Shown here in pieces: positions 6,076 through 8,237 of a stretch of DNA of 64,000 nt. Location of the stretch: contig NZ_CP096120.1 in NCBI RefSeq assembly GCF_023158935.1, positions 1,984,001-2,048,000 of the forward strand. The letters are read 5' to 3'. The notes below the pieces were generated by a model. It saw only the letters and a list, made by a program, of their open reading frames with translations. It did not search any database and was not told where the DNA came from. This DNA comes from Acinetobacter portensis. Its GTDB lineage: Bacteria; Pseudomonadota; Gammaproteobacteria; Pseudomonadales; Moraxellaceae. A program made the position numbers and the translations under genes. Each line of letters opens with the position of its first letter. Position 1 is the stretch's first letter.

Positions 6076-6435
6076 ATGGCTAAAGTATCATTAGAATAAC
6101 TATCAAGTATCGACGGATTTTACGCTGCAGCATTAGTAGATGGCGAAAGTGGATTAGCACTAGCAACTCAAGGAGGCGGAGATATCGATTTAGAATTAGC
6201 AGCAGCTGGTAATACAGAAGTTGTCCGATCAAAGCAACGCGTAGCACAAGCGCTAAATTTAAATGACACAATTGAGGATATTCTTATCACACTTGGTAAG
6301 CAATACCACTTAATTCGCCCACTTGTTAATAATGAAAATGTTTTTCTATATCTGGTACTTGATCGTTCTAAAGCAAATCTAGCAATGGCTCGTCATGAAC
6401 TAAAAAGTTATGAAAAAGGTTTAGACTTTGCGTAA
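6076..6435 (+). pseudogene. Roadblock/LC7-like protein gene with a nonsense codon at position 8
   Basis: Reading from ATG 6076 gives MAKVSLE, then TAA at 6097-6099. The same frame then stays open for 111 codons to TAA at 6433. The conceptual 119-residue protein (LSSIDGFYAAALVDGESGLALA, later RSKQRVAQALNLNDTIEDILITLGKQYHLIRPL and VFLYLVLDRSKANLAMARHEL) has the alternating strand-helix pattern and the LVDxESGLAL start of roadblock/LC7 or MglB-type proteins. No internal ATG exists until MARHEL near the C terminus, so restart is unlikely. One G-to-T change (GAA to TAA) explains the stop. The ribosome-binding site and terminator are both preserved. It is either a recent pseudogene or depends on TAA readthrough. 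Confidence 0.72.
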
Positions 6436-6447
6436 TTCCACACACTT

Positions 6448-6480
6448 AAGCCCTTTATAGAGTTTCAAAGGGCTTTATTT
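6448..6480 (+). terminator. Intrinsic terminator after the first roadblock gene
   Basis: AAGCCCTTT at 6448-6456 pairs with AAAGGGCTT at 6467-6475, followed by TATTT. It separates the first roadblock gene from the rest of the module. Confidence 0.7.
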
Positions 6481-6508
6481 CCCTATCTTTACTTTAAAGG
6501 TGAAATAT

Positions 6509-7260
6509 ATGAACCCTAAAACTTATAATAATCAGCATTTACTGAAACAATAATAAATTTCCCTCATTCATTTAGACTATATTTAGCCAAACATACTTAC
6601 TCACACACCCTCTCTCTCCAATCAAATTTGAATCTTCCTGAATACAATCAGATTGAAGGTTATAACAATAGTATAGAAAGAATTACTTCATTATTTGATA
6701 AGTTATATACAACGGATAAAGATATAAAGTTACATTTATTTGATAACAATGGAACTATTGCAATAGCTCAACCAGATAAAAATCAAATATGGATAAACCC
6801 TGCAAGAGAGAATACTAAGACTAGTTTTCATTTTAATTTTGAAATTGCAAATACGGACTCCCTTACAAAAGTGAATCGCAAAGAAACTCTAATTTTAAAT
6901 GATTGGATTTAGAATCTCTTTTGGAACAGTAGTGAAGTTGCAATTGCATTATCCCCAAGTGATGGACATTTCAAGATAAATTATTGGCCAAAACCGTCAG
7001 ATATTAAAAACAAAAAAATAATATTTCAACTTAGTGCATGTTTTATACAAGGCGGCAAAATTTCAACAATTGCTGATCAGTTAAACTTACCACCCGATTT
7101 GGTAAAACAGTTTATTGGTGCAAATATTACTATAGACAATGTTGAAAAAATTAATATTTGGGATAAACACTATAGCCCTCCTACTTCAAATACGGAAAAT
7201 GAGGATGTTAGCTTCATAAAAGATTTTTTCAGTAATTTAAGAAAAACATTACGCCTATGA
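6509..7260 (+). pseudogene. Broken gene of unknown family inside the roadblock/GTPase module
   Basis: An ATG at 6509 with AAGGTG six bases upstream reads MNPKTYNNQH and hits stops after 14 codons. The frame one base back stays open from 6532 and reads TETIINFPHSFRLYLAKHTY, then LPEYNQIEGYNNSIERITSLFDKLY, on to TAG at 6910. After the TAG the same frame continues for 115 more codons to TGA 7258. So one single-base deletion near 6535-6540 and one nonsense mutation break an original protein of about 250 residues. The family is unknown to me. The C-terminal part (GGKISTIADQLNLPPDLVKQ) looks like a helix-turn-helix or winged-helix segment. The gene ends 14 bases before the GTPase gene. Confidence 0.65.
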
Positions 7261-7274
7261 TATGAGATTTATTT

Positions 7275-7817
7275 ATGATCATCCAACAATATAAAATTGT
7301 CTTTGCTGGAACTATGGGAGCAGGGAAAACTGAAGCTATTCGATCACTATCCGATATCCCAATTCTTTTAACAGAAGCACTTAACACAGACCAAGAAAGC
7401 CATTCAAAACCACAAACAACCGTCGGCATTGATTATGGTGAAGTAACACTAGATGATGGATTAATAATCGGACTTTATGGCACACCAGGGCAAGAACGAT
7501 TTGATTTTATTTGGTCCGTGATCTGTAAAGGTGCAATCGGAGCAATCATATTAATTGATCATACTTTAGAAAATCCAATTGAAGAACTCGAACATTATCT
7601 AGAAGTATTTCAGGAGTATACAGAATATATTGCTATTGGAATTACACATACAGATGGTGATCTAAATAAATCTACTTATATTTATCAAGAATGGTTGATC
7701 AAAAATGACCTTTATCATCCATTATTTATGATTGATGCACGTAAAAAAGATGATGTCAAACTACTATTAGAAGCATTAATTACCACGATAGAAATTAATT
7801 ACAACATTACTGCTTAA
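7275..7817 (+). CDS. Small Ras/Arf-like GTPase (MglA / conservon CvnD type)
   Basis: This 180-residue protein is a bacterial small GTPase of the kind paired with roadblock proteins. The P-loop GTMGAGKT is at residues 12-19. A Thr-containing switch I region reads TTVGIDYGE. The G3 motif has the form YGTPGQERF near residue 72, a variant of DTAGQ seen in the bacterial group. A THTD segment near 126 fits the G4 (NKxD-like) position. No lesion is visible, unlike its neighbours. It would act with roadblock partners, by analogy MglA-MglB polarity switches or Streptomyces conservons, but the biological role here is unknown. The ribosome-binding site is weak. Confidence 0.85.
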   Translation: MIIQQYKIVFAGTMGAGKTEAIRSLSDIPILLTEALNTDQESHSKPQTTVGIDYGEVTLDDGLIIGLYGTPGQERFDFIWSVICKGAIGAIILIDHTLENPIEELEHYLEVFQEYTEYIAIGITHTDGDLNKSTYIYQEWLIKNDLYHPLFMIDARKKDDVKLLLEALITTIEINYNITA

Positions 7818-7830
7818 TTGGAGAAATTCT

Positions 7831-8237
7831 ATGTTTGCACTAAAGAAAGAAAGATTCCCGAACATATAATTCAGAATGCAAAGATAGAAATCCAGAGCAT
7901 ATTTAATAATGTTAGTGGTGTGAATTTCATCATGATCTGCTCCACAGATGGTTTTGAAATTACAACTCTTTATAAAAAAAATATATTTAACCAAACAAAG
8001 CTTGCAGCCGTTAGTAGTTCATTACATGCAATGGTAAGTGCTCTTATGAATGAATTACAACTTATTAAATGCCAATCCATAACCTTAGATGCAGAAAATG
8101 GTAAAGCAGTTCTTACATCCATCCCAAGTAGCCAATATCCAATGATTATTGTCGTTTTAGCAAATAAAGATATTCTATTAGGGCAACTTCTACATGCACT
8201 AAAAAAATCTAGCTTAGTAATATCTAGCTTTGAATAA
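7831..8237 (+). pseudogene. Second roadblock/LC7-like (MglB-type) gene with a displaced start
   Basis: The body of this gene (IPEHIIQNAKIEIQSIF, then VNFIMICSTDGFEITTLYK, AAVSSSLHAMVSALM and QLLHALKK) is a clear roadblock/LC7-like domain of about 120 residues. The best start is ATG 7831, with GGAG seven bases upstream. That frame reads MFALKKERFPNI and stops at 7867. The body is one base out of phase with it, so a single-base deletion around 7850-7858 is the simplest explanation. The alternative is a TTG start at 7818, directly after the GTPase stop, with no own ribosome-binding site; it would give 139 residues. I favour the frameshift because MFALKKER joined to IPEHIIQ looks like one continuous N terminus. 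Confidence 0.6.

Follow-up and report, generated by a model that had tools for sequence, protein, structure and literature searches.

A Group 3-like MglA/MglB operon with three broken genes and an intact GTPase gene in Acinetobacter

What becomes of a GTPase switch when most of its genes are broken? The window analysed here, a stretch of 64,000 nucleotides of Acinetobacter DNA, raises this question at 6076-8237, where four consecutive plus-strand genes (rob1, g2, the GTPase gene and rob2; Table 1) lie between sspB and a hypothetical gene on the upstream side and a convergent rRNA operon on the downstream side. We consider it probable that these genes constitute a Group 3-like MglA/MglB operon, and, because three of them are broken and the GTPase alone is intact, that the encoded switch is out of use here.

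Table 1. Features of the operon and of the adjoining interval in the window
Feature	Position	Strand	Basis
rob1, roadblock/MglB-like gene, broken by in-frame TAA at 6097-6099 (codon 8)	6076..6435	+	Sequence; roadblock fold in the model of an intact relative's protein
Hairpin after rob1	6448..6475	+	Fold -10.7 kcal/mol, z -2.6 in the window
g2, HTH-like partner gene, broken	6509..7260	+	Reading frames; relatives
MglA-like small GTPase gene, 180 aa, intact	7275..7817	+	Reading frame; motifs
rob2, second roadblock/MglB-like gene, broken near its start	7818..8237	+	Reading frames
Terminator-like hairpin between rob2 and the convergent rRNA operon	8275..8305		Scan of the window

Three of the four genes carry lesions

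The lesions can be read directly, and they are those that an initial annotation of this DNA had described: a nonsense codon, a frame break plus a nonsense codon, and a frame break near the start. Past its early stop, rob1 (which begins with ATG) stays open to its end, and its product is 90% identical to the intact 119-residue protein of A. gandensis, the nearest named homologue being that of A. faecalis (95%). An in-frame stop is present in three of the 150 Rob1 matches listed from 175 Acinetobacter genomes, and the window supplies one of the three. The ATG of g2 at 6509 is followed by two in-frame TAA codons (6551-6556); the frame homologous to that of relatives differs from the ATG frame, is interrupted by a TAG at 6910-6912 and ends at 7260. 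For rob2, the ATG at 7831, behind a GGAG, opens a frame that stops after 12 codons at 7867-7869, and the homologous frame can be read without a stop from a TTG at 7818, directly past the GTPase stop, to 8237; the frame break sits in a short A-rich run. All 180 codons of the GTPase gene are open, again as first described.

Could sequencing or assembly error have produced this pattern? The DNA is A+T-rich and several lesions lie close together, as error might have it. However, the broken-frame Rob2 protein recurs with one substitution (P0121, from a cluster of 21 members) on a contig of 4,582 bases, a size that no contig in this genome has. Likewise, the 108-residue Rob1 call that starts past the stop is found on four contigs, this genome's among them, and there are three similar 108-residue calls (P0010-P0012); for the other contigs recurrence is known from protein calls, which would imply the upstream lesion there. 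Since near-identical broken alleles, one of them with a differing residue, thus exist elsewhere, error is an extremely improbable cause. Moreover, the flanking rplM, rpsI, sspA, sspB and hypothetical gene are open across their matched length, and the damage to a second operon copy in this genome arose in another way. The initial annotation, which had noted the undamaged surroundings and thought error a poor explanation, was right on both counts. Close relatives with an intact rob1 do exist, since we found complete 119-residue Rob1 proteins that are 95-99% identical over the compared piece (P0001-P0006, P0008 and P0009).

The second operon copy of this genome is also damaged

A GTPase query returned one further match in the genome, overlooked by the initial annotation: a 53% identical protein encoded on the same contig at a distance of 394 kb. 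In this second copy, at about 2,383,600-2,386,100 of contig 1, an IS5-family transposase with terminal inverted repeats abuts a g2 that has lost about its first half, rob1 is absent, the GTPase gene and rob2 are open, and another rRNA operon comes after them. In relatives, the same place beside ygiQ (L014, L062 and L121) holds rob1 together with g2 or at least its start. Matches within the genome thus comprise one Rob1 (with the stop), two g2 (both damaged), two Rob2 and two GTPases. Because the second copy is damaged as well, the assembly contains no intact rob1 and no full-length g2; it retains two GTPases and one intact rob2.

The start of g2 in the window resembles the short g2 of L120 (genome G159), and both lack the receiver-like half that other relatives have. 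As the g2 of the second copy is without its first half, the receiver-like half is absent from both copies. The g2 of A. gandensis (L001:3917-4290) is also broken at its start; its receiver-like half is readable, without a start codon of its own.

Motifs and gene content fit the Group 3 MglA/MglB class

To which known class does the operon belong? The initial annotation had likened it both to the conservons of Streptomyces and to MglAB of Myxococcus. On the motifs and gene content on which the placement rests, the operon fits the published Group 3 of MglA/MglB systems, which Wuichet and Sogaard-Andersen 2014 (PMC4316618) present as a beta/gamma-proteobacterial class, with Acinetobacter named nowhere in the main text. 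Group 3, as described there, combines an MglA-like GTPase of 150-240 aa beside one or two MglB homologues, a G4 motif without lysine and a DAR-type G5. The GTPase of the window has 180 aa and is encoded between two roadblock genes, and its motifs are G1 GTMGAGKT, G3 GTPGQ, G4 THTD and G5 DAR; in 27 aligned GTPases, G4 lysine occurs in none and G5 is D-x-R in all. The published class also includes a protein of unknown function whose N-terminus is receiver-like and whose C-terminus is HTH-like, and the g2 of relatives, encoded beside the GTPase, has a predicted receiver-like N-terminal half. Among the matches listed of g2 to PDB structures there are receivers for the N-terminal half only, with none for the C-terminal half, and the top Foldseek hits are type II dehydroquinases, with receivers ranking lower. 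Against HTH_40 and HTH_23, g2 gave weak matches, in 12 of the 56 members for either model (best E 0.00019 for the former, 0.004 for the latter). What sets the window apart from Group 3 is its state: three of four genes are broken and the g2 of its lineage is without the receiver-like half.

The conservons (CvnA-D) resemble the operon in that a roadblock protein, a small protein and a small GTPase are encoded together, and also in GTP-binding motif features in common with Group 2. Unlike them, the window operon has two roadblock genes, no gene for a CvnA histidine kinase alongside (its neighbours are sspB, the hypothetical gene and the rRNA operon) and no DUF742, which was unmatched in its own genome and in the scanned g2 proteins, a very distant relation being possible. 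Because the kinase gene is lacking and DUF742 is unmatched, we reject membership of the conservons. With the Group 1 system of Myxococcus the operon shares the roadblock fold: the model of Rob1 from an intact relative aligns with MglB chains, 6hjm and 3t12 among them, at TM ~0.7-0.8. It differs in that its G4 lacks the lysine of [NT]KxD and in the additional receiver/HTH-like partner.

Among the literature matches listed, experimental work on Group 3 Mgl is confined to Snodgrassella, and none describes an Acinetobacter Mgl system. Searches for Acinetobacter combined with roadblock, GTPase and MglA gave nothing, those with conservon gave nothing relevant, and the listed matches for Acinetobacter and roadblock do not concern this module. 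The mgl operon of Snodgrassella (PMC11112851) similarly has mglA with coupled mglB genes; unlike ours, it comprises one mglA and three mglB genes, including an orphan mglB-3, and what is reported is a missense allele, not operon decay. Carriage of this mglB-3 allele changed edge motility and was an advantage in colonising a new host. The initial annotation suggested a signalling or polarity switch; for a role in cell polarity or pilus-dependent motility, co-occurrence with type IV pili is uninformative in Acinetobacter because PilT-family genes are found in all 175 genomes, whether the module is present or not. An anti-phage defence role was rejected, with PADLOC returning no match for the five proteins submitted.

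The operon is conserved in relatives and has been lost repeatedly

The GTPase is present in 93 of 149 Acinetobacter genomes, often in more than one copy, and has no match in the other 56; Rob1 is present in 111 of 175. Nearly all other GTPase-bearing genomes (89 of 92) are also in the Rob1 list, the exceptions being G022 (a distant GTPase), G108 (490 contigs) and G110 (64% complete). Of ten chosen Rob1-positive genomes, seven gave no GTPase match; one of the seven, G159, is fragmented, with loci that end at contig ends. Six genomes (G148, G099, G103, G129, G026 and G164) match Rob1 more weakly, at E of about 1e-17 to 1e-44, and have no GTPase match; these are possible orphan roadblock proteins.

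Loci are of three kinds: A, after sspB; B, which in L014, L055, L062 and L121 lies beside ygiQ; and C, ordered GTPase-rob2-g2-rob1. Scoring covered 48 loci of kind A, 17 of kind B and 9 of kind C. We could see sspB next to 29 of the A loci; the other A loci have short flanks and were assigned by similarity. Intact genes in the order rob1, g2, GTPase, rob2 number 39, 43, 45 and 46 in A loci, 14, 13, 16 and 15 in B loci and 6, 9, 9 and 5 in C loci, counts in which the window rob2 passes as intact owing to its TTG, the GTPase of L050 passes despite a flagged TAG, and intact GTPases are favoured by the query with which the loci were collected. Three loci run into contig ends (L002, L006 and L120) and two have short flanks (L050 and L134). 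Of the 48 A loci, 35 received an intact score for every one of the four genes. Thus the operon of roadblock, HTH-like, GTPase and roadblock genes that the initial annotation took to be ancestral and now degenerating is indeed found whole at the same place in relatives. Median dN/dS for intact pairs is 0.024 for rob1 (11 pairs) and 0.141, 0.061 and 0.037 for g2, the GTPase and rob2 (12 pairs each), from 13 chosen pairs with missing or saturated ones dropped; judged by these values, intact copies are under strong purifying selection.

Damage elsewhere in the genus is piecemeal. Among the other A copies, for example, rob1 is damaged in L008 and L070 and g2 in L001 and L051; the GTPase gene of L131 is split, its two pieces lying about 1.3 kb from each other, and L078 has damage in rob1, g2 and the GTPase gene. 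Three rows among the GTPase matches listed have stops (G079, G114 and G122). Because such losses recur, the window is a snapshot, in mid-decay, of a module that is lost repeatedly.

A convergent 5S rRNA gene lies less than 600 bases downstream of rob2 in 22 A copies (the window included) and four B copies, both operon copies of this genome being among them. The arrangement is seen at 8237-8430 in the window and at L055:9078-9311, and it also occurs in L001, L061, L062, L014, L069, L074, L077, L115, L116, L118, L122 and others. Loci of the A. calcoaceticus-baumannii complex (L003, L004 and L006-L009) have no 5S gene within this distance past rob2. The module may have been copied or moved with the help of recombination between rRNA operons.

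Rob1 evolves slowly and is followed by a hairpin

Mean column identity is 87% for Rob1 versus 69% for the GTPase (alignment A2). As Rob1 is slower-evolving, by identity and by dN/dS, than the GTPase that it presumably serves, the alignments hint at a further conserved partner of Rob1.

The hairpin 3' of rob1 has a z below -3 in 44 of 57 loci, the window falling short of this value. Where no more than 100 bases separate rob1 from g2, every locus but the window folds at -13.3 kcal/mol or below; the hairpin is missing in L049 and L051-L053. Since it follows rob1 in most loci, its presence suggests that rob1 would be set apart and Rob1 made in excess of the products of the downstream genes. The sequence of this hairpin varies, with similar strength across most loci, and in several it is terminator-like. 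Upstream of rob1, a TTG...TATAAT-like element looks conserved in 17 aligned loci; in a plain scan, promoter-like sites in the window were not in excess (11 versus 14.6 in shuffles).

Substitution patterns differ between rob2 and the GTPase

The window GTPase groups inside a supported clade with other locus-A copies, next to that of A. portensis, its nearest named homologue (93%). Measured from the node that the two share, its branch (0.047) is not clearly accelerated relative to that of A. portensis (about 0.034), and its single private change at near-invariant columns, where 61 of 69 sequences have none, is common to A. portensis. The Rob2 branch of the window and P0121 measures 0.19, compared with 0.056-0.146 for the five sister tips that leave that node, and the window Rob2 has two private changes (61 of 65 sequences have none). 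Because of these changes and the long branch, constraint looks relaxed in rob2, and not clearly in the GTPase. For Rob1 the window has one private change, 48 of 58 sequences having none.

Discussion

Has the whole operon been given up, or has a part of it been kept? Two of our findings sit poorly with decay, namely the GTPase branch that is not clearly accelerated and the long open frame of rob2 from its TTG. The GTPase might have been kept by selection and work without Rob1 and g2, either in a switch reduced to the GTPase and one Rob2 or as an always-on GTPase; we regard this as unlikely. In this genome each operon copy keeps an open GTPase gene and has neither an intact rob1 nor a full-length g2, rob2 looks to be evolving faster, and the private GTPase change is not even confined to the window, all of which would suit retention, as would the favoured Snodgrassella allele (PMC11112851). 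Yet four random lesions would miss the GTPase gene with a probability of about 0.29, so its intactness is no evidence of sparing by selection, and we rejected such sparing as not significant; the query bias of the locus collection and the broken GTPase genes of other genomes speak against retention too. It is quite unlikely, in our estimation, that loss of the roadblock/receiver arm was itself selected in both operons, leaving a stripped, constitutively active GTPase output in parallel with the host-switch mglB allele of Snodgrassella.

We consider it very unlikely that the lesions are recoding or phase-variable sites at which readthrough of the rob1 stop and slippage at the A-rich start of rob2 yield some functional protein. 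Beyond the lesions, long frames persist that still resemble those of relatives, and the A-rich run and the position of the rob2 TTG would lend themselves to such a mechanism. Against it, rob1 has by eye no in-frame ATG, GTG or TTG soon past its stop, g2 has several separate lesions, Rob1 and Rob2 carry private changes at near-invariant columns, and most relatives lack such sites. Decay of the operon thus remains our preferred reading.

What has been given up would, by analogy, be a GAP-controlled switch that likely helps to control surface behaviour. In intact relatives, Rob1 and/or Rob2 would be the MglB-like GTPase-activating partners, and g2 may be an input or output partner, either a transcription regulator or an exchange factor. 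The latter role has been proposed for MfpC, a CvnC homologue, which together with MfpD provides the analogy for GTPase partners (as summarised in PMC13343842). Without its partners, the GTPase would cycle unregulated or the system would be silent; because Rob1 and a complete g2 are gone in the window lineage, regulated cycling has probably been lost. The remaining genes should decay next, and the GTPase and Rob2 of the second copy may persist as a remnant. Group 3 Mgl is a published class, and Acinetobacter lineages caught in the middle of losing it offer a natural series of partial operons that lets one ask which part is dispensable. The series points to Rob1, the slowest-evolving part, as the core partner.

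Elsewhere in the window, a tandem repeat (14213-14455) whose reading gives KESRNQGI units adjoins a cluster of four tRNA genes, and a cobalamin riboswitch (32944-33148) lies upstream of an open reading frame of 624 codons.
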